64,000 bases of DNA, taken from positions 248,001 to 312,000 of the forward strand of contig NZ_WIXI01000049.1 in the NCBI RefSeq assembly GCF_009617585.1, in the 5' to 3' direction. The notes under the pieces were generated by a model. The model was not told where the DNA came from. It ran no database searches and saw only the letters and a list, made by a program, of their open reading frames with translations. Of this stretch, positions 44,154 to 58,288 are shown piece by piece. Positions within the stretch are counted from its first letter, which is position 1. Every line of letters begins with the position of its first letter. Position numbers and translations under genes: made by a program. This DNA comes from Endobacterium cereale. GTDB lineage: Bacteria; Pseudomonadota; Alphaproteobacteria; Rhizobiales; Rhizobiaceae.

Positions 44154-44641
44154 CAGAAATCCTTTGATTGGAAGTCAATCTGCAAACAGGACAGCACTAC
44201 CATAAAGTAGCCCGAAATGCCGTGCAACAAAAAGAAAAGACAATTAATAATTGCATAACAAACTAACAAGGCAAAACATTTGTTCCATAAGCGCGGTGGA
44301 TACCATCACGCGAAACGGCATCGTCTGCCTGATAACAGACAATTCCGTCACAGTAACATATTTTTGCGCAATATCAGGAATGCGACGTTGAGAATTGCCA
44401 TTTCCGAGTCTATGGCAGGTTAGCAATTCACGCTCGGATTAGCCACCGGCCAACACAGGATTGTCCGGCAGCGGACAAAACAACCCCATCCCGAAGACGC
44501 CAAACCTTTTGAAATATCGATTTTTGACAACCTGTTAGCCTCGATCAACATCTCGTTGGGTGCAAGCCTGCTTGCTTGACTTAATTGTCGCAGGGGTGGA
44601 TTCTGCCAAATTAGAAATGACTTAAGTTGAGGAGAATATTC
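44154..44641. other. 488-bp divergent regulatory region between the AraC gene and fdoG
   Basis: No gene. It is A+T-rich from about 44200 to 44400. A weak sigma70-like pair, TTGACT at 44576-44581 and GATTCT at 44599-44604 (17-base spacer), lies about 40 bases before the fdoG start. I found no perfect FNR palindrome and no sigma54-type GG/GC element with correct spacing. Confidence 0.4.
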
Positions 44642-47600
44642 ATGAATATGGATCTCTCGCGGCGCAGCTTTATGAAGCTAGCCGGAGCGGGAGTGGCGGC
44701 AACATCGCTCTGTGCGATGGGCTTCAGCGAAGCGGAGGCAGCCGAAGTCGCGCATGTCCGCGCCTTCAAGCTGGCAACGACCACCGAAACCCGTCAGACC
44801 TGTCCCTACTGTTCCGTCGCCTGCGGCATCATCATCTATTCCAAGGGTGACGTTCGCAAAGGTGATCATGCGGAAGTCGTTCACATCGAAGGCGATGTCG
44901 ACCATCCGACCAACCGCGGGACGCTCTGTCCCAAGGGGGCGGCGCTGAAGGACTTCGTGAAGTCTCCCACCCGTCTCCTTTACCCGATGCACCGCAAGCC
45001 TGGCGCAGACACGTTCGAGCGCATGTCCTGGGACGAGGCTCTCGATCGCATCGCGCGGCTGATGAAGGACGACCGCGACGCCAACCTTCTTCTGAAAAAC
45101 GAGAAGGGTCTGGACGTCAATCGCTGGACGACCACGGGCATGCTCGCAGCGTCGGCCACATCAAACGAAACGGCATGGGCGACCTTCAAGTTCGCCAAAT
45201 CGATAGGCATTGTAGGTTTCGACAATCAGGCACGCGTCTGACACGGCCCGACGGTGGCGAGTCTCGCCCCATCATTCGGCCGTGGTTCCATGACCAACGC
45301 CTGGACTGACATCAAGAATACCGACCTCGTCGTCGTCATGGGCGGCAACGCGGCGGAAGCACACCCCTGTGGTTTCAAGTGGGTGACGGAAGCAAAGGCC
45401 CATCGCGGCGCCAAGCTGATCGTCGTTGACCCGCGTTATACCCGCACGGCCTCCGTATCAGACTTCTATGCTCCGATCCGTCAGGGTTCGGACATCGCTT
45501 TCCTCAACGGCGTGATGAAGTACTGCATCGATAACGGCCGGGTGCAGTGGGAATATATGAAGGCCTTCACCAACGCGTCCTACATCGTCAAGGACGGCTT
45601 TGGGTACAAGGACGGCCTGTTCACCGGCTATGACGAGGAAAAGCGCGATTACGACCGCTCGACCTGGGATTACGTGATCGGCGAGGACGGCTTTGCCGTG
45701 ACCGACCCGACGCTCGAACATCCGCGTTGCGTCTGGAACCTCCTGAAGGAGCATCTCGCCCCTTACACGCCGGAACTGGTCGAACAGGTCTGCGGCACAC
45801 CGAAGGACAAATTCCTGAAGGTGGCCGAAATGATCTCGGAATGCTCGACGCCGACAAAAACGATGACGTCGATGTATGCGCTCGGCTGGACCCAGCATTC
45901 CAAGGGTTCGCAGAACATCCGCGCCATGGCGATGCTGCAGCTGATCCTCGGCAATATTGGTGTACGCGGTGGCGGCATGAACGCCCTTCGCGGTCACTCG
46001 AACATCCAGGGTCTGACCGACCTTGGCCTGATGTCGCACCTCCTCACCGGTTATCTGACGATGCCGAGCGAGAAGGACACCGACTTCGAGACCTATATGT
46101 CGACGCGTCAGTTCAAGCCGCTTCGTCCGGGTCAGACCAGCTACTGGCAGAACTACAAGAAGTTCATGGTCTCCTTCCAGAAGGCCATGTGGGGCGATGC
46201 CGCGACAGTCGAAAACGGCTGGGCATTCAACTACCTGCCGAAACTCGATGTTCCGGCATACGATGTCCTTCGCATGTTCGAACTGATGAACAACGGCAAG
46301 GTCAACGGCTATCTTTGCCAGGGTTTCAACCCGATCCTCGCCTTCCCCAACCGTGCCAAGATCACGTCTTCCCTGTCGAAGCTGAAGTTCATGGTCACTA
46401 TGGACCCGCTGGAAACCGAGACCTCGCGGTTCTGGGAAAACCACGGCGACTTCAACGACGTGGACACGGCATCGATCAAGACCGAAGTGTTCCAGCTGCC
46501 TACGACCTGCTTTGCAGAAGAAGACGGCTCGCTGACCAATTCGGGCCGTTGGCTTCAGTGGCACTGGCAGGCAAGCTCGCCTCCGGGCGAAGCCAAGCAT
46601 GACTCGTGGATCATCGCGCAGATCTTCCTGCGCATGCGCGAACTGTACCGCAAGGAAGGCGGCGCCTTCCCCGATCCGATCCTCAACCTGTCATGGGATT
46701 ACGAGGACGAGAACGAACCGACGGCGGAAGAACTGGCGAAGGAGATCAACGGCCGCGCGCTGTCTGATGTCATGGACCCGACCGATCCGACCAAGGTTCT
46801 GGTTGCGAGCGGCAAGCAGGTGGTCAACTTCTCGCAACTCAAGGACGATGGCTCCACCATGTGCGGCTGCTGGGTTTATTCCGGCTGCTGGAACGAAGTT
46901 GGCAACAACATGGGCCGTCGTGACAACCACGACCCGGACGATACCGGCGCCTATCTGGGCTGGACGTTTGCCTGGCCGCTGAACCGCCGCACGCTCTATA
47001 ACCGTGCGTCGGCGGATATCAACGGCAAGGCCTGGGATCCTACTCGCAAGATCATCGAGTGGGATGGTGCCAAGTGGACCGGTTATGACGTTCCGGATAT
47101 CGCCCCCACGGCGAAACCCCAGGATGTCGGCCCGTTCATCATGAACCAGGAAGGCGTTTCGCGTCTGTTCGCGCGCGGCATGATGCGTGACGGTCCGTTC
47201 CCAGCTCATATGGAGCCTTTCGAGTCTCCGGTCGAAAACGTGTTCAACCGGAAAATGCGCGGCAACCCGGTTGCCCGCGTATTCGCCTCGGATGCGGCAC
47301 AGCTCGGCACGTCGGCGGAGTTCCCCTATGCGGCGACCTCCTACCGCCTGACCGAACATTTCCACTACTGGACGAAGCACAACCGAGTGAACTCGGCGCT
47401 TCAGCCAGAATTCTTCGTGGAGATTTCGGAAGAGCTGGCCAAGGAAAAGAACATCGAACAGGGCGGCTGGGTCCGCGTCTGGTCGAAACGTGGTTCGGTG
47501 AAAGCAAAGGCTGTGGTGACGAAGCGCATCCGGCCGCTCATCTGCGACGGAAAGCCGGTTCATATCGTCGGCATCCCGCTGCACTGGGGCTTTACCGGCT

Positions 47601-47737
47601 CGGCGAAGAAGGGCTTTGGCCCCAACTCGCTCGCGGCCTTTGTCGGTGACGCCAATATCGAGACCCCGGAATCGAAGGCGTTCCTCGTCAATATCGAACC
47701 CTCGACCGCACCCAAGGACAAGGAGGTGAACGTCTGA
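44642..47737 (+). CDS. fdoG: Formate dehydrogenase alpha subunit, selenocysteine-containing, Tat-exported
   Basis: 1,031 residues reading the UGA at 45239-45241 as selenocysteine (residue 200). Start ATG at 44642 after GAGGAGAATATTC; the TTG at 44627 is only the ribosome site. The N-terminus has a textbook Tat motif ([12 protein letters not shown]). A [4Fe-4S] motif follows (CPYCSVACG, then LCPKGA). Residues around the UGA read [21 protein letters not shown], as in the FdnG/FdoG family. The molybdopterin guanine dinucleotide domains continue with [20 protein letters not shown]. The enzyme oxidises formate in the periplasm and passes electrons to FdoH. Its stop overlaps fdoH by one base (TGATG). 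Without Sec insertion only a 199-residue fragment would be made. Confidence 0.97.
45239..45284 (+). promoter_or_regulatory. Selenocysteine UGA codon with SECIS hairpin in fdoG
   Basis: UGA at 45239-45241 is followed at once by CACGGCC (45242-45248), which pairs with GGCCGTG (45278-45284). The apical stem is GG/CC plus GGCGA/TCGCC (45253-45268) with a GUC loop at 45261-45263 and a bulged U at 45255. The bulged U and the G-U in the loop are the features SelB recognises in E. coli SECIS elements. Confidence 0.93.
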
Positions 47738-49567: not shown

Positions 49568-50500
49568 ATGTCCGTATCTTCCATTCAGCCCGATCCCTCG
49601 ATGATCGGCGGCATTTCCAAGGCGCCCTTTGCCCTGATGCCCAATCCCGCCCGTTTCTTTCAGGAACGCGCCACCCGTTTCAAGATCCTTGCCGATACAA
49701 GCAATCTCGGCCCCTATCTCAGATTTCTGAGCGCGATCGCCGATCTGCAGGCAAAACTCATCGAAGAACTGCCACAGGTGACATCGGTCGACGCCGATCA
49801 GGTCGCTCGTGCCCGTGAAAACACCATGCCGCCGATTGATCGCGCCGCCATGGTGAAAAGCGAAGACTACCGCAAGACGCTCGCCCTTTTCCTCCAGCGC
49901 GCAAAAAGCATCGAAAAGCCGGTAGCCGCACAACAGGTTCTCGAGGCCGTTATCGCCGCCGGAGAAGACACGCTCGACTGGATGATCGGCAATGTGATCG
50001 CCGATACGATGCCGGTCGAGGGCCTTGCTCATCACCTATATATCGCCGCCGCCACGCAGGTTCATGCCGCACGTCTCGCAGCCGGCCTCGATGCGCTGAA
50101 ACTCGTGCCAGTCGCGCCGGGCGTCTGCCCCTCCTGCGGCGGCAAGCCGGTCGGCTCGATGGTTTTAGGCGTTCAGGGTGCCGAAGGCGCCCGTTATGCC
50201 TGCTGCTCCGGATGCGCGACGATGTGGAATGAGGTGCGTGTGAAATGCATCGCCTGCGGCACCACCAAGGGCGTCGGTTATCGTGCCGTCGAGATCGAAG
50301 GTGATCCCGAAGGCAAGACGGCGGTCATCAAGGCGGAAGTCTGCGACGAGTGCAAAAGCTGGACAAAGATCCTCTACCAGAACAGGAACCCGTCGCTGGA
50401 AATCATCGCTGATGATGTCGCAAGCCTCGGCCTAGACCTTCTGATGAAGGACAGCGAATACAAACGTGCCGGTTTTGATCCCTTCCTTGTGGGGTACTGA
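49568..50500 (+). CDS. fdhE: Formate dehydrogenase accessory protein FdhE
   Basis: 310 residues. The C-terminal half carries four paired-cysteine motifs (CPSCGGKP, CCSGCATMW, CIACGTTKG, CDECKSW), the rubredoxin-like metal sites of FdhE, and the N-terminal helical part has the ARFFQERATRFKILAD block. FdhE is needed for activity of Tat-exported formate dehydrogenases and is thought to act on FdoG before export. The stop lies five bases before the selA start. Confidence 0.95.
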   Translation: MSVSSIQPDPSMIGGISKAPFALMPNPARFFQERATRFKILADTSNLGPYLRFLSAIADLQAKLIEELPQVTSVDADQVARARENTMPPIDRAAMVKSEDYRKTLALFLQRAKSIEKPVAAQQVLEAVIAAGEDTLDWMIGNVIADTMPVEGLAHHLYIAAATQVHAARLAAGLDALKLVPVAPGVCPSCGGKPVGSMVLGVQGAEGARYACCSGCATMWNEVRVKCIACGTTKGVGYRAVEIEGDPEGKTAVIKAEVCDECKSWTKILYQNRNPSLEIIADDVASLGLDLLMKDSEYKRAGFDPFLVGY

Positions 50501-50504
50501 GACC

Positions 50505-51905
50505 ATGGCGGATCTTTCGAGTTTGCGCCACCTCCCCTCGGTGGACCAGATTCTCAAAGCCCCGGAAACGGCGCCGCTTCTGGATACCTATGGCCGCGCC
50601 ACCGTCACCGACGTTTTGCGCACGCTTCTCGACGAAATCCGCACAGCCATGCGCGGCGGCGCGCCTCTGCCGGATGTCGCCGCTATTCTCGCCTCGCTGA
50701 CCAGCAAACTCGAATATCACGATCGCTCCAACCTGCGCCCGCTGATCAATCTCACCGGCACCGTGCTGCACACCAATCTCGGCCGCGCGCTGCTGGCCGA
50801 GGAAGCGGTGAAGGCCGCCGTTGATGCCATGCGCGAGGCCGCGGCGCTTGAATTCGACCTCGACACCGGCAAGCGCGGCGAACGCGACAGCCATCTGCGC
50901 GAGCTTCTGTGCGAACTGACCGGCGCCGAAGACGCCACCATCGTCAACAACAATGCTGCCGCCGTGCTGATCGCGTTGAACGCCGTTGGTGCCGGCCGTC
51001 AGGCCATTGTCTCGCGGGGCGAACTGATCGAAATCGGCGGCGCATTCCGCATGCCCGACATCATGGAACGCGCCGGCGTCCAACTGGTCGAAGTCGGCAC
51101 CACCAACCGCACCCACCCAAAAGATTACCGCAATGCCATCCGTGAAGAGACGGCGCTGATCCTGAAAGTGCACACATCCAACTACCGTATCGAGGGTTTT
51201 ACGGCCGAAGTTTCGGGCGCGGAACTGGCCAAGATCGCGAAAGATGCAGACATTGCTCTGTTGAACGATCTCGGCTCCGGCACGCTGGTCGACCTCTCCC
51301 AATACGGCCTTGCCCGCGAACCGACAGTGCGCGAGGCGGTGGCTGAAGGCGCGGATCTCGTCACCTTCTCCGGCGACAAACTGCTCGGAGGCCCGCAGGC
51401 CGGTTTCATCGTCGGCCGCCGCGACCTGATCGCCGAGATCAACCGCAACCCGCTGAAAAGGGCGCTGCGCGTTGACAAGATCCGCATCGCCGCCCTCGCC
51501 GCAACGCTTAAACTTTATCGCGATCCGGATCGCCTCGGCCAACGCCTGCCGACCTTGCGCATGCTGTCGCGCCGCCAGAGCGACATTGCCGAACAGGCCG
51601 AACGCCTGTTGCCGCACGTCTCCGAGACGCTGGCAAAATTCGGCTACGCGGTGGAAACCTGCCGCTGCGCCAGCCAGATCGGCTCCGGCGCGCTCCCGGT
51701 GGATACGATACCGAGCGCGGGACTGCGCATCGGACACACCAGCGGCGGCGCTCTCGAAAAGCTGGCCGCAGTGTTTCGCGCCTTGCCCCGCCCCATCCTC
51801 GGGCACATCCGCGATGGTGCCTTGATCCTCGACCTGCGCTGCCTCAACGATGAAACCGCCCTTCTCTCCAGCCTTTCGCATGTGAATGCCAATGCGCTGG
51901 CTTGA
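50505..51905 (+). CDS. selA: L-seryl-tRNA(Sec) selenium transferase
   Basis: 466 residues from ATG at 50505; the frame from 50466 overlaps fdhE. A PLP enzyme that converts Ser-tRNA(Sec) to Sec-tRNA(Sec) with selenophosphate from SelD. Conserved blocks: INLTGTVLHTNLGRALL, ALEFDLDTGKRGERDSHLRE, VNNNAAAVLIALNA and the PLP-lysine motif TFSGDKLLGGPQAG. Normal length. Confidence 0.97.
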   Translation: MADLSSLRHLPSVDQILKAPETAPLLDTYGRATVTDVLRTLLDEIRTAMRGGAPLPDVAAILASLTSKLEYHDRSNLRPLINLTGTVLHTNLGRALLAEEAVKAAVDAMREAAALEFDLDTGKRGERDSHLRELLCELTGAEDATIVNNNAAAVLIALNAVGAGRQAIVSRGELIEIGGAFRMPDIMERAGVQLVEVGTTNRTHPKDYRNAIREETALILKVHTSNYRIEGFTAEVSGAELAKIAKDADIALLNDLGSGTLVDLSQYGLAREPTVREAVAEGADLVTFSGDKLLGGPQAGFIVGRRDLIAEINRNPLKRALRVDKIRIAALAATLKLYRDPDRLGQRLPTLRMLSRRQSDIAEQAERLLPHVSETLAKFGYAVETCRCASQIGSGALPVDTIPSAGLRIGHTSGGALEKLAAVFRALPRPILGHIRDGALILDLRCLNDETALLSSLSHVNANALA

Positions 51906-52809
51906 TCGCTTTTTCCGCAGCACCACAGTGCCGACTGATCGAACGCAGCAGACAGCCACAACAGGCCATGCAGGCGTATCCGACAATGCCGCAGATGCCG
52001 GGCCAACTGGTTCGCCCCGGCCATCCATGTCACCCGACACTGCGCTTGCCCAGATGAACGCCGCCCTCACCGCCGCCAAAGCCGGCGATTACGACACGGC
52101 CCTTGCCCTATGGGAGCCGCTCGCCCGCGCCGGCAATGCCCGTGCGCAAAACAATATCGGCGCCTGTTTTGCCGAAGGTCTGGGCGTGCCTTCCGACCGG
52201 CCGTTGGCGCTGAGGTGGCTGACACTCTCCGCAGACGCCGGTGATCCCGTCGGCCAGCGCAACTGCGCCGCCTTCCACATGCAGGGCAGCGATGCGACCG
52301 GTTCCGATGCCGATCCGGCCAAGGCCGCAAAACTCTATCGCCTTGCCGCCGAACAGGGTGATGCACCCTCGCAGGACATGCTGAGCTGGCTGTTGCTCGA
52401 AGGCGAGATAATCCCCTCCGATCGGGCTGAAGCCAAACTCTGGGCCGAACGCGCAGCCGAAGGCGGTGTTGCCGCCTCGATGACGCGTCTCGGCATGCTC
52501 TATCACAACGCCATCGGCGTGGACCGCGACCCGGATAAGGCCGTGTTCTGGTGGCGCAAGGGGGCGGAAGGCGGTGATGCCGACGCGCAGGCCATGCTGG
52601 GTGCTGCCTGCCATATGGGTGCCGGAACGCAGGTTGATCGCATCGCTGCTCTCGCTTGGCTGATCCGTGCCATGCATGGTGGCAGCGCTCTTGCCCAACC
52701 GTTCCTCAATCCCGTTCGCGAAAACCTGTCAGCCGCGGATATAGCGGAAGCAGAACGCCGCGCCCGTCTGCCGCTTGTTGAGATGATCATGGCAGGAGAT
52801 GAATCATGA
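51886..52809 (+). CDS. Sel1-repeat protein
   Basis: 307 residues starting 20 bases inside the end of selA (alternative ATG at 51892). After a disordered N-terminal segment come about five Sel1-type repeats, seen as [80 protein letters not shown] and [20 protein letters not shown]. No signal peptide, so probably a cytoplasmic alpha/alpha solenoid mediating protein contacts. Its position between selA and selB suggests, but does not prove, a link to Sec insertion or formate dehydrogenase. Confidence 0.85.
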
Positions 52810-52930
52810 TTTTTGACGGCAAAGGTTCTGCAGACACCTGCACATCGGGTGATCACCTCGCGCAAAAACCGGCGACGGCCAAACGCCGTGCAAAACGGTC
52901 TCTTTCGGCGATGATCGCGGGGAGCAACCC

Positions 52931-54985
52931 ATGATTATCGGCACAGCCGGCCATATCGACCACGGCAAGACGACGCTGGTGAAAGCGCTGACCGGCACCG
53001 ATGCCGACCGCCTGAAGGAAGAAAAGGCGCGCGGCATCACCATCGATCTCGGTTTTGCCTATGCCAGATTTGCCGGCGATGCCGTCACCGGTTTTATCGA
53101 CGTGCCCGGCCATGAAAAGTTCATTCACACCATGCTGGCCGGTGCCGGCGGCATCGATTATGCGCTGCTGGTGATCGCAGCCGACGACGGCATCAAGCCG
53201 CAGGCACGCGAACATCTTGCCATTCTCGACCTTCTCGGCATTTCTCGAGGCATCGTCGCTCTCACCAAGGCCGATCTGGTTGATGCCGACCGCCTGACCG
53301 TCGTCACCAACGATATTCGCGCCTTGCTCGTCCCGACACGGCTGAGAGACATCGACATCCTGCCCGTGTCGGCCGCGACGGGTCAAGGGATCGAAGAGCT
53401 GAAATCCATCCTTGCCGAAGCCGAGCGCAACACGGTCGAAACCGCCACGGAAGGCCGGTTCCGTCTCGCCGTCGACCGTTCCTTCACGCTATCGGGCGCC
53501 GGCACCGTCGTCACCGGCACGGTATTGTCCGGCTCGGTTGCGATCGGCGATACCGTCACCGTCTCGCCCGCCGGCCTCCTCGCCCGCGTCCGCTCCATCC
53601 ACGCCCAAAACATGGCTGTCGAACGCGGTTTTGCCGGCCAGCGCTGCGCCCTCAACGTTGCCGGCGAGGCGATTGCCAAGGACGCCATCCATCGCGGCGA
53701 CATGGTGGTCGATCCCGCCCTGCACGCCCCGACCGAACGCATCGACGCCGAGCTTACCGTTCTCGCCAGCGAACCAAAAGCTATTGGCCAATGGTTTTCT
53801 GCCCGCTTTCATCATGAAAGCGTCGAGGCCGGTGTTCGCATCGTGCCGCTCGAAGGTCCGGTCGCGCCCGGCGACACCGCGCGTGTGCAGCTCGTGCTGG
53901 ACCGCCCGATTGCCGCCGCCGTCGGCGACCGCTTCATTCTCCGCGATGTCTCTGCCCAGCGCACGATCGGCGGCGGCGCCTTGATCGACCTGCGCCCGCC
54001 GGCCAGAAAACGTCGCACTCCCGAACGGCTAGAACAACTGACGGCAGCAGCCAAACCCACGTCTGCCGAACAACTGTCCGCCCTCATCGATACCGCCCCC
54101 TATCTGGTCGATCTCAACACATTTGGCCGCGACCGAGCGATGTCGCCGCAGCAATTGAATGCCGCGATGGCAGCAGCCGGCATCGTGCTGGTCGAAGCTT
54201 CCGGCATTGCCTATGCCATGTCGGCAAAAAACCGCGCTGCCTTTACGACACAACTCACCGACCTGCTGACGGCTTTCCACACGGAAAACCCGGAACTGCA
54301 GGGTCAGGGCCGCGAGCGCCTGCGCATGGCGATGACACCCCGCCTGCCCGCCCCCGCTTTCCTTGCCGTCATGCGTACAGAGACGGCAGCAGAAAACATC
54401 GTGCTCGAGGGCGCTTTCGTGCGCCTGCCCGGCCACATCGCCCAGTTGGGCGAAACGGAAGAAGCGCTTTACGCCGAAATCCTGCCGCATCTCACCGGTG
54501 AGAACCGTTTTCGCCCGCCGCGCGTGCGCGATTTTGTTGAACTGATCGGCGGCGATGAACGCGAGATCAGGCGTGTCCTAAAACTCTGCGCCCGGCTCGG
54601 CCGCGTCGACCAGATCCGCCACGATCACTTTTTTACCCGCTCGACGACAGCTGAGATGGTGGAGATCATTCGCGAAATCGCAGTCGAAGCGGAACATGGC
54701 GAATTCCAAGCCGGCGCCTTCCGCGACCGTGTGACGAGCGGTCGAAAGGTTGCCATCGAGATCCTCGACTTTTTCGACCGACATGGTGTAACGCTTCGGC
54801 GAGGCGATCTTCGCCGCATCAATCCGCATCGGCTCGATCTGTTCGGCCCGTCCGTTCCTGATGCTGATAATGGAAGAGATTCGTCCCCGGTGGGGCGTCC
54901 GGACTTCAAATCCGGGTGGGGCAGCGACGCTGTCTTGGGTGGGTTCGACTCCCATTCTCTTCCGCCATCAGGAGAAAGATCGTGA
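52931..54985 (+). CDS. selB: Selenocysteine-specific elongation factor SelB, frame extending through tRNA-Sec
   Basis: 684 residues. GTPase motifs: G1 GHIDHGKTT (7-15), [13 protein letters not shown]; then EF-Tu-like beta barrels ([20 protein letters not shown]) and the C-terminal winged-helix repeats that bind the SECIS ([40 protein letters not shown]). The SelB-like part ends near residue 646. The frame then continues through all 96 bases of tRNA-Sec as exactly 32 codons (residues 648-679) plus five more, stopping at 54983-54985. It overlaps the next gene's GTG by four bases (GTGA). Either the tail is real or translation ends earlier by a route not visible; no in-frame stop exists before the tRNA. 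Confidence 0.95.
54872..54967 (+). tRNA. selC: tRNA-Sec (anticodon UCA)
   Basis: 96 bases including CCA. Acceptor GGAAGAGA (54872-54879) pairs with TCTCTTCC (54956-54963) in the eight-base form typical of tRNA-Sec, discriminator G, then CCA. Anticodon stem CCGGA/TCCGG encloses CTTCAAA, giving UCA. A long variable arm (CAGCG-AC-GCTG) and a T arm GGG/CCC around TTCGACT are present. The gene lies wholly inside the selB reading frame. Confidence 0.96.
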
Positions 54986-55365
54986 GCAATCCTTCCGCCG
55001 AGACCGACTTCGACGACTGGGTGATCGACACTTATGCGGATGCCGGTTCCTTCACCATGCTGTTCATTCTGGTATCGATCAGCGAGACCAGGGTCGAACT
55101 GCTGCGCTCCGCCTATCTGCATGTGGTGGGTGATGAATTGCGCTGGCCGGACATGGCAAAGCTGTTTGCCGGTGCGGGTGTAAACTGGTCCGGCGTCGTC
55201 TTTTACCGCGCCGGCCGCGAAGGACTTGTCGAGGACAGGCAAGCCAAGTCACGCCTTGCGTCGCTCGTGCGCAAGCTGGATGAAGACCGCTCGCTAATCC
55301 GCGATGGCGAGTTTTTTAATGAAGACGGGTTGCGGTTGATGATCGAGGAAATCAAGCCGAATTGA
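54982..55365 (+). CDS. Conserved hypothetical protein coupled to selB
   Basis: 127 residues from GTG at 54982, with an AGGAG ribosome site (54970-54974) located immediately after the tRNA CCA end. It starts [20 protein letters not shown] and has no signal peptide, membrane segment or recognised domain. The GTGA overlap with the selB stop indicates translational coupling, so a role around Sec synthesis or formate metabolism is possible. An in-frame start at 54916 inside the tRNA is much less likely. Confidence 0.7.
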   Translation: MSNPSAETDFDDWVIDTYADAGSFTMLFILVSISETRVELLRSAYLHVVGDELRWPDMAKLFAGAGVNWSGVVFYRAGREGLVEDRQAKSRLASLVRKLDEDRSLIRDGEFFNEDGLRLMIEEIKPN

Positions 55366-55384
55366 TTGGCGGAGGTTGGGGGCT

Positions 55385-55523
55385 GCCCCTCATCCGCCTG
55401 CCGGCACCTTCTCCCCGCAGGTGGGGAGAAGGAAAATCCTGGCACCGCTTCGCCTAAATCCAAGACATCGAATATGGCAAGTCCCCTCTCCCCGCCTGCG
55501 GGGAGAGGGTTAGGGTGAGGGGC
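55385..55523. repeat. RIME1-like intergenic repeat
   Basis: A 139-bp element bounded by GCCCCTCA and its complement TGAGGGGC. It contains two palindromes: CCTTCTCCCC-GCAGGT-GGGGAGAAGG and CCCTCTCCCC-GCCTGC-GGGGAGAGGG. This is the characteristic layout of the Rhizobium-specific intergenic mosaic element. It lies between converging genes. Confidence 0.8.
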
Positions 55524-55547
55524 AAACCCCATCCCATATTCCAGAAA

Positions 55548-56615
55548 TCAGGCCGCGATTTCCTTCGAGGAAATCGAATAGGCAAACGTCTTCGGGCTCA
55601 GGCAATCCACTTCACCGCGCGACGTCAGCGCTGCCGGATACATGAAGAAGTTTTGGCGGATCTCATTTCCCGGAAGTGTGATGTCACGCGCCGTGTTGTA
55701 ACCGATCCAGTTCATTTCCCAATTGCCGAAAGCTTTCTGGCGGAAAGCCTGCACGGCATCGTTTTCCAATGGCAGCTTTTCTTCCAGCACGACCTTGCGG
55801 ACATCTGCCGGATCGACCGGCACCCAGCCCTGGCCTTGGAGATAAACTTCGGCGCGACAGTGCTGCGCACCGGTAATGTCGCCGGCACGGCCGAGTGCCT
55901 TGAACTGGTCCGAGGTGGCGACACGTACGCCAAAAACATCGCGGGCGGGCAGGCCGGCGGCGCGGGCAAGTGCCGTGTAGAGGCTGTTGATGTCGGCGCA
56001 TTTGCCGCCGAAATAGCCGGTTTCCAGCATGTCCTTGACATTGCCGACACCACAACCCGCAATATTGGCATCGCGAAACGTGTTTTCGACAACCCAGTTG
56101 TAAATGGCGCGGGCCTTGTCCTCGTCCTTCTCGCGAGTGCCGATGATATTCATCGCCGTGTCCTTGACGATGCCGTCGATCGGCGCACTTGCCGTGCCGA
56201 CAAGCGCGGCATCGAGTTCCGCCTGCTCAACGGCCACACCGTCAGCCTTGCGGTTGCGGGTCTGGATCGTCTGGGTGAATTCGATCGTGCGCTTGCCATC
56301 GGTCTGCCATTCGGCGGAGAGGATATCGGCGCCTGACGTGGCGTCCTTCTTCATCTCGACCTGCTTTGAGTCCGACGTCCAGTGCGGCGCCGATGCTTTC
56401 TGGTATTCGCCGGCCGACTGGGCAACAGGCAGCCAGAGCTTTGCAGGACCGGTGACGTCGGTCAGATCGACCTTGGTGGTGACTTCAAATGTGCGCCATG
56501 CAGTCGTATCGGACACCTTGTCGGCGGCAAAAACCGGATTTGCGCCGCGTGAAATAAAGGCGGCGGCAACGGATGCCGTAGCGGCATGGCCAAGAAAACG
56601 GCGGCGGTTCAACAT
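55548..56615 (-). CDS. Tat-exported transglutaminase-like protein
   Basis: 355 residues from ATG at 56615 (AGGAGTTGG upstream). The N-terminus MLNRRRFLGHAATASVAAAF is a Tat-type leader, cleaved near VFA-AD. A beta-rich domain (about 40-170) precedes the transglutaminase core with a complete papain-like triad: Cys in GYFGGKCADINSLY, His in TGAQHCRAEVYL, Asp in WVPVDPADVRKV. Periplasmic members may be proteases or peptide cross-linkers; substrate unknown. It is convergent with the selB unit, the RIME element lying between. Confidence 0.82.
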   Translation of the reverse strand: MLNRRRFLGHAATASVAAAFISRGANPVFAADKVSDTTAWRTFEVTTKVDLTDVTGPAKLWLPVAQSAGEYQKASAPHWTSDSKQVEMKKDATSGADILSAEWQTDGKRTIEFTQTIQTRNRKADGVAVEQAELDAALVGTASAPIDGIVKDTAMNIIGTREKDEDKARAIYNWVVENTFRDANIAGCGVGNVKDMLETGYFGGKCADINSLYTALARAAGLPARDVFGVRVATSDQFKALGRAGDITGAQHCRAEVYLQGQGWVPVDPADVRKVVLEEKLPLENDAVQAFRQKAFGNWEMNWIGYNTARDITLPGNEIRQNFFMYPAALTSRGEVDCLSPKTFAYSISSKEIAA

Positions 56616-57238: not shown

Positions 57239-58288
57239 TCAGCCGTCGACGATTATTCCGGCAGATCCCTCTTCCACCGTGCCGACGATCGATGCGAGCG
57301 GATAACCGGCAGCCCGTATCTCTTCAACCAGTGCATCAGCCCTGTCTGCCGAGACCGAAACCAGAAGCCCACCCGAAGTCTGCGGATCGGCCAGCAGCAT
57401 ACGCTGCCATTCCGGCATGCCTTCCGGCAACGTGATCGCCTCCCCATAACTGGCCCAGTTGCGACCCGAAGCGCCGGTGATGAACCCTTGCTGCGCCAGT
57501 TCTTCCGCCTTGGTGAGAAACGGAATGTCAGCAAGCTTCAGCCGCAGCGTCAAGCCGGAGGCGCGTGCCATTTCCAGCCCGTGGCCGAGAATACCAAAAC
57601 CCGTGACGTCGGTGATCGCGTGCACTTGCCGGTTGGCCGCAAGCTCGGTACCCACCTCGTTAAGCAGCGTCGTGGAAGCGATCATCTCGTCATAAGCGGC
57701 GGTCGGCAGTGCGTTCTTCTTGATCGCCGAGGAATAGATGCCGATACCGATGCCCTTGGTCAGGATCAGCTTGTCACCCGCTTTCGCACCGCCATTGCGG
57801 CGCACCTGGCTCGGATGGCAGATGCCGATGACGGCCAGCCCGTAGATCGGCTCGACGCTGTCGATCGAATGGCCGCCGGCAACCGGGATGCCGGCGGTGG
57901 AACAGATGGCCGCGCCACCTTCCAGGATCTTGCCGATGGTTTCCGGTGCCAGCTTGTTGATCGGCATCCCTAAAATGGCGAGCGCGAGGATCGGCTTGCC
58001 GCCCATGGCATAAACGTCGGAAATGGCATTGGCGGCGGCGATACGGCCGAATTCGTAAGGGTCATCCACCATTGGCATGAAAAAATCGGTGGTGGCGATC
58101 ACGCAGGTATTGTCGTCGATCTGCCAGACAGCGGCGTCATCGGCCATCTCGTTGCCGACGAGCAGTTGCGCAAACGGCTGTGCGGCCGGCTGACCTGCCA
58201 GCAGTTTCTGCAGAACGGCGGGCGCCAGCTTGCAGCCGCAGCCACCGCCATGCGCCAGTTCGGTCAAACGGAAGGATGTTTCTGCCAT
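57239..58288 (-). CDS. selD: Selenide, water dikinase (selenophosphate synthetase)
   Basis: 349 residues. It makes selenophosphate from selenide and ATP for SelA. The N-terminal active-site loop is [13 protein letters not shown] with Cys (not Sec) at the catalytic position and the essential Lys two residues on. [30 protein letters not shown] and [19 protein letters not shown] are family hallmarks. It completes the Sec pathway in this window. Confidence 0.97.

Follow-up and report, generated by a model that had tools for sequence, protein, structure and literature searches.

In a 64,000-nucleotide stretch of Endobacterium cereale DNA (hereafter the window), the tRNA-Sec gene selC lies whole and in frame inside selB, on the same strand, so that the factor and its tRNA share DNA, as the initial annotation had proposed. 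This nesting, together with the proposal that tRNA excision destroys the selB message, was already published in 2021 (Mukai, Int J Mol Sci 22:4605, PMC8124441); what is new relative to that work is a set of tests of frame, peptide, and overlap, not the arrangement. For the published arrangement we favor, with a probability of roughly 0.55, a reading in which ribosomes read through the tRNA sequence until it is processed and the frame is kept mainly for reaching the overlap with the next gene. A frame that is kept around a nearly free peptide points to coupling with the next gene before it points to a function of the SelB tail.

Results

selC Lies Whole and in Frame Near the End of selB

The selB gene occupies positions 52931–54985 on the plus strand (684 codons followed by TGA) and was assigned from the open reading frame list, the TIGR00475 equivalog, and Pfam SelB domains. 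TIGR00475 matches SelB residues 1–629 with 412.9 bits against a cut-off of 242.25; the GTPase, SelB beta-barrel, and winged-helix domains were all found (Pfam, NCBIfam), and the folded part of the protein ends near residue 638–640. Behind the last winged helix, which ends in LDLF, a plus-strand spacer of nine codons (54845–54871; an anchored gap of 27 nt) leads to selC at 54872–54967 on the same strand, identified by ARAGORN and Rfam RF01852 (match at 54872–54963, 76.5 bits, gathering score 47), with anticodon UCA and an encoded CCA. Its minimum-energy fold is a cloverleaf with an 8-bp acceptor stem and an 8-bp variable arm; together with the UCA anticodon, these two long elements are the features by which tRNA-Sec is recognized.

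The distance from the selB start to the first tRNA base (54872 − 52931 = 1941 = 3 × 647) places that base at the opening of a codon, and the 96-nt selC, a multiple of three, reads as 32 selB codons. A trailer follows on the plus strand (54968–54985), consisting of five further selB codons (TCA GGA GAA AGA TCG; SGERS) and the TGA stop at 54983–54985. These coordinates bear out the earlier description of a selB frame that is stop-free up to tRNA-Sec, reads the whole tRNA as 32 codons, and then adds five more; the resulting SelB tail has 37 residues, where 38 had been given. The next gene, a 127-codon open reading frame from the same list (ORF2; 54982–55365, plus strand), starts with GTG at 54982, and the selB stop and ORF2 start share four bases (GTGA, 54982–54985), the overlap that had been described. 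A plus-strand AGGAG (54970–54974) lies 7 bases 5′ of this GTG and is the presumed Shine-Dalgarno site of ORF2. Its presence behind the CCA had been reported correctly; its position needs a small correction, as it begins on the third base after the CCA (54970). A cut at the CCA would leave ORF2 with a leader of 14 bases (54968–54981), the length first proposed. Directly 3′ of ORF2, at about 55375–55530 of the window, a GC-rich inverted repeat (ctccccgc...gcggggag) was seen by eye.

The plus strand of the window carries a formate dehydrogenase/selenocysteine operon. A plus-strand SECIS element at 45236–45294 (Rfam RF01989, 82 bits) contains the in-frame Sec UGA (45239–45241) of formate dehydrogenase, whose open reading frames 44627–45241 and 45254–47737 lie in one frame with only that TGA between them; the gene name rests on sequence and context rather than on a family search. 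This formate dehydrogenase is the presumed user of the window's tRNA-Sec, and further open reading frames of the operon resemble its subunits and fdhE. selA (50466–51905) and a Sel1-repeat protein gene between selA and selB (51886–52809) lie on the plus strand, and an AIRS-domain protein gene, presumably selD, occupies 57239–58288 of the minus strand (all from Pfam).

Genome-wide, RF01852 gave 11 matches, two of which reach the cut-off: the window's selC and one other. ARAGORN, run on the best 8 of the 11 (the remaining 3 being below cut-off), made a SeC call for the window's selC only among those 8. The sole other above-cut-off match is tRNA-Ser(tga) and was rejected as a second tRNA-Sec. An alpha-type tmRNA gene is present in the genome. 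The window's SelB shares 93% identity with the SelB of a record named R. wenxiniae HU50 and 86% with its counterpart in R. wenxiniae DSM 100734. Among seven same-genus genomes of the family sample, none gave a SelB match; the selenocysteine operon is thus patchy and may have been gained by transfer.

Nesting Recurs in One Reading Phase

To compare loci, 62 named loci from a search of relatives were combined with loci L071–L157, obtained by SelB searches of genomes from the family (394), the order (397), and the class (385), sets that overlap and each include the window's own genome, and with 40 further stretches. With an E-value limit of 1e-60, SelB was found in 48 of the 394 family, 29 of the 397 order, and 54 of the 385 class genomes. 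Loci L001–L008, tRNA matches from the window's own genome, were left out as SelB loci. Of the 189 remaining (L009–L197), L056, L065, and L176 were dropped for lack of a SelB C terminus, leaving 186, and removal of 12 duplicates (identical over 750 bases) gave 174 loci, including the window's L071. Near-identical pairs were kept (for example, L012/L013 and L044/L097); all 48 family matches were included, whereas one second fragment from the order search (G751) and two matches from the class search (G1080 and G892) fell outside the set. selC was counted on the selB strand only, and L156, with selC on the other strand, was therefore placed among loci with no selC nearby.

Across these 174 loci, selC is nested in 58, contains the selB stop in 7, and follows a selB stop by at most 300 bases in 56; it lies farther downstream in 11, and 42 have no same-strand selC in the stretch covered. 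Nested selC is read in phase 0 at 57 of 58 loci and in phase 2 at one, and stop-before loci are spread over the three phases (21/19/16, n = 56). Because non-nested selC genes behind a selB stop are open in 44, 56, and 45 of 67 cases over the three frames, a tRNA-Sec gene without an in-frame stop is not rare by itself; the other two frames are likewise open in 51 and 49 of the 58 nested genes. Recurrence in one phase is not chance. The phase 2 exception, L171, belongs to the same family and has a different tail, so more than one frame is viable.

Phase Is Kept While Spacer Length Changes

A SelB tree (FastTree) was built for 123 of the 174 loci (identity ≥45%, >250 residues extracted); length-change counts drawn from it carry its weaknesses (39 open branches among 120 inner ones and joined long branches) and rest on a single alignment anchor, of which the phases are independent. 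On this tree, the 64 nested or partly nested loci, a class itself defined by the frame reaching the tRNA, show at least 28 spacer-length changes with 3 phase changes, versus 25 length changes with 12 phase changes among the stop-before controls (32 of 56 in the tree; Fisher P = 0.005, treating the changes as independent events). The 36 nested loci with an ORF1 or ORF2 homologue downstream contribute 14 changes of length and none of phase; the 22 without contribute 8 and 1.

Stops alone do not force this phase, as shifted frames often still cross the tRNA. When the frame is shifted by one base after the last winged helix, the whole tRNA is still read in 44 of 57 loci, with a stop inside the tRNA in 6 and before it in 7; for a two-base shift, the corresponding counts are 25, 5, and 27. 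From these comparisons the open frame, rather than the peptide, looks selected, and frame-preserving evolution supports ribosomes having read through the tRNA.

Across the 123-locus SelB tree, nested and non-nested states replaced one another 18 times or more, and L040 and L043 have lost the frame within an otherwise nested clade. Relatives whose selB stops before selC, which the initial annotation had held would count against its reading if close and lacking a conserved tail, were found and speak in part against that reading: L014, L017, L019, and L077 are examples (selC called by ARAGORN), and the SelB of L014 is 89% identical to the window's over residues 1–640. In L014 and L015 (SelB 89% and 87% identical), selB stops early, the called selC and then ORF2 follow 700 and 803 bases past the selB stop, and the bases directly behind that stop resemble, by eye, a decayed selC start. 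Extra DNA (5880–6725 of L014; 5880–6873 of L015) appears by eye to part this apparent selC remnant from the intact selC and ORF2. L015 is Rhizobium sp. NFR07, for which a selC remnant in selB has been reported (PMC8124441). The comparisons indicate that the nested arrangement is favored but dispensable, the position also taken in PMC8124441.

The Tail Peptide Looks Unimportant

In 17 sister pairs of nested loci, chosen by hand from the SelB tree, pN/pS was 0.10 over the last 50 folded codons and 0.77 in the spacer, where the two wrong frames gave 1.00 and 0.59. The trailer gave 0.77 (12 pairs comparable), with 1.06 and 1.92 in the wrong frames, and its differences fall 24/13/32 by codon position, leaning to position 3. 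Within the tRNA, itself under tRNA constraint, pN/pS was 0.27 from 21 changes (12 against 9). Strong amino acid conservation inside the tRNA region of SelB has been described (PMC8124441); it needs no protein-level cause, because the minimum numbers of changes within the tRNA are distributed alike over codon positions in nested and non-nested genes (48/23/46 in 57 nested versus 67/39/56 in 31 non-nested; P = 0.60).

An AlphaFold model of whole SelB, built with 22 sequences, has pLDDT <50 at residues 641–684 and >70 for most of the rest, although parts of the GTPase (7–9 and 27–40) also fall below 50 in the same shallow-alignment model; the tail is likely disordered. Taken over pN/pS, the codon-position test, and the model, there is little sign of selection on the tail peptide; weak constraint may persist, but its amino acids appear to matter little. 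For structural studies, SelB proteins annotated with such a tail could be treated as if they stopped at about residue 640.

The Downstream Gene Commonly Overlaps the selB Stop

Homologues of the 127-codon gene are here called ORF2, and a second family of about 150–165 codons is called ORF1; these labels follow Mukai, with correspondence to his ORFs by name, not by sequence. One or the other lies downstream in 36 of the 58 nested loci, and in 30 of these 36 the stop/start overlap is exactly four bases, with the trailer having changed length at least 6 times among the 30. In the remaining six, the overlap is eight bases (L012 and L013) or absent (L086, L087, L124, and L130). The exact four-base overlap also occurs in 5 of 7 loci that have ORF1/ORF2 and no selC nearby, which suggests that selB–ORF coupling exists without the tRNA. 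The count of nested loci without an ORF1/ORF2 match (22 of 58) may be too high, as the bases behind the stop in L054 resemble an ORF1 start by eye. Over independent pairs, nesting and ORF1/ORF2 varied the same way in 4.3, the other way in 0.4, and showed no difference in 4.3, an association that is a trend only (median P = 0.125, range 0.03–1). A Fisher test of the four-base overlap (30 of 36 nested versus 0 of 8 stop-before loci) was set aside, because a stop that precedes selC can scarcely reach a gene lying beyond it.

Of 388 family genomes (the window's own included), 17 carry ORF2, and all 17 are among the 48 of 394 with SelB (compared by eye); these homologues are L199–L215, and in genome G070 the homologue sits on a different contig than selB. 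ORF2 has no Pfam or NCBIfam match, and two ORF1 examples (L026 and L082) likewise matched nothing in NCBIfam and nothing above the cut-off in Pfam. One of five ORF2 fold models is confident (mean pLDDT 89.7; others 39–51), and its best match in the PDB has E = 0.17, with none convincing. ORF2 is best regarded as a candidate accessory of the selenocysteine/formate dehydrogenase system.

Promoter and Flanking-Helix Analyses

A scan for E. coli-like sigma-70 sites found none in 52800–55600, with 0.5 expected in shuffles. Conservation of four-fold sites over the last 40 codons before the spacer was 0.626 against a gene mean of 0.523 in one clade (10 sites), which is equally high at codons 80–120 (0.654), and near the mean in two others (0.480 versus 0.448, 11 sites; 0.491 versus 0.458, 13 sites). 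At low power, neither the sigma-70 scan nor the four-fold sites give clear support for a promoter in selB.

Folding of 54842–54985 pairs TTCCTGATG (54855–54863) with about 54966–54974 in a 9-bp helix that encloses the cloverleaf, although shuffled versions of the stretch fold equally well (z = −0.55). Such a helix would cover the AGGAG of the next gene; by eye it is common to close relatives, L010 having one mismatch. When the upstream flank was shuffled by mononucleotides in 57 nested loci, a mild tendency to such pairing appeared (mean z −0.36; below −1.5 in 11 and above 1.5 in 1). As a general feature, an AGGAG-hiding helix was rejected, since true flank pairs are no stronger than mispairings with the flanks of other loci: the fraction of stronger mispairings was 0.51 per locus and 0.52 over 23 clusters (P = 0.66), with 0.44 in 46 stop-before controls.

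Discussion

Under the reading we prefer, a single formate dehydrogenase/selA/selB operon transcript would carry tRNA-Sec within the last selB codons. Ribosomes arriving before processing would cross the tRNA sequence, add the tail, and stop at GTGA, where re-initiation on the 127-codon gene could follow from the overlap. Once the cloverleaf folds, RNase P would cut its 5′ end and tRNA-Sec would be freed, leaving a non-stop selB message for tmRNA rescue and the next gene on its 14-base leader. One bifunctional transcript cut by tRNA processing is plausible, a reading with which the negative promoter scan and synonymous conservation that does not clearly rise toward the selB end agree weakly. 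The initial annotation had gone further and held the three products to be mutually exclusive per transcript. By our reasoning this is probably too strong, because an RNA translated ahead of RNase P cleavage is not consumed by it: protein would be made first and tRNA afterward. The 127-codon gene, whose AGGAG stays in the leader, might also go on being translated once the cut is made. Judged from phase and overlap across loci, the frame is probably kept most often because it couples translation of selB to that of ORF1/ORF2; coupling is not the whole reason, because the frame is also kept in the 22 nested loci without ORF1/ORF2. A bolder version, which we hold tentatively and at somewhat less than even odds, is that ribosomes routinely cross the tRNA and that selection acts on this passage and not on the peptide, with the tRNA serving as a timer and ORF1/ORF2 being unrecognized accessories dosed with SelB. 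Early transcripts would then yield SelB and, by coupled re-initiation, the next gene's protein, and later ones would mature into tRNA-Sec plus a stopless selB fragment for tmRNA to clear.

Mukai (PMC8124441) proposed a homeostatic role, in which release of the tRNA destroys the selB message and keeps SelB low relative to tRNA-Sec. An RNase P cut at 54871/54872 would indeed leave selB stopless in a genome that has tmRNA, and the idea would explain frame keeping in the 22 of 58 nested loci without ORF1/ORF2. Such a switch is, however, not generally needed, given that 56 of 174 loci have a stop at most 300 bases before selC; where selB ends in an ordinary stop ahead of selC, the tRNA would be cut out too, with selB left intact; and homeostasis alone does not demand an exact four-base overlap with the next gene. 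We consider it rather unlikely as the explanation of frame keeping, although holding SelB down relative to tRNA-Sec may be an added benefit within the coupling account. A passive origin, in which selC came to lie at the selB end, a stop disappeared by accident, the tRNA happened to be open in most frames, and the tail is read-through that is tolerated but of no benefit, would fit the commonness of open frames through tRNA-Sec (44, 56, and 45 of 67 non-nested genes), the near-neutral tail peptide, and the at least 18 gains or losses of nesting. It predicts phase drift as in the controls (12 in 25), whereas nested and partly nested loci show 3 in 28, with P about 1e-6 if about 0.55 of surviving changes are out of phase (an estimate from the shift counts, independence assumed), and the exact overlap with ORF1/ORF2 in 30 of 36 loci also speaks against it; we judge it improbable.

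We give similarly little credence to the proposal that tRNA-Sec has its own promoter within selB, which would make processing of the selB message irrelevant. The scan covers E. coli-like sigma-70 sites only, one clade has raised four-fold conservation before the spacer, and a dedicated promoter has been suggested for the antisense selC of Shewanella (PMC8124441); yet no promoter-like site was found in 52800–55600, if at low power, two other clades stay near their means, and the high clade is equally high elsewhere in the gene. That the tail is a functional SelB domain seems very improbable. The reported conservation in its tRNA region and weak leanings in our own counts (tRNA pN/pS 0.27; trailer 24/13/32) would fit such a domain, but the tRNA changes as it does in non-nested genes (P = 0.60), spacer pN/pS falls between the two wrong frames, residues 641–684 have pLDDT <50 (as do GTPase residues 7–9 and 27–40), and the frame in which L171 crosses the tRNA is a different one. 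Should ribosomes indeed translate through the tRNA, one RNA would be the message for a factor and also the tRNA that this factor carries, a natural case of competition between translation and RNA processing.

Four-base ATGA/GTGA overlaps in bacterial operons are a mark of translational coupling. The window shares with such operons its four-base stop/start overlap and a Shine-Dalgarno-like site just 5′ of it; unlike in ordinary coupling, the ribosome must here cross a tRNA sequence before it reaches the overlap.

The closest known systems are the nested loci described across Alphaproteobacteria, R. wenxiniae and Azorhizobium caulinodans among them, for which the same processing model, with tRNA release making the selB mRNA non-stop, was proposed and whose nested tRNAs are mostly 96 or 93 nt long, multiples of three (PMC8124441). 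Two reviews (PMC9312934 and PMC13188914) repeat the arrangement, and among open-licence PubMed Central papers we found no experimental follow-up of it. Like those loci, the window has a whole 96-nt tRNA-Sec in the selB frame on the same strand, a tail that begins with Gly and reads Pro at the CCA, and a stop that overlaps the start of the next open reading frame; no structural difference was found. A further parallel, as related in PMC8124441 (Doublet 2015), is the Armadillidium vulgare mitochondrion, in which tRNA-Lys lies whole inside the cox1 frame in direct orientation, as tRNA-Sec does here; unlike the window, that case concerns an animal mitochondrion, and its tRNA and protein are not partners.
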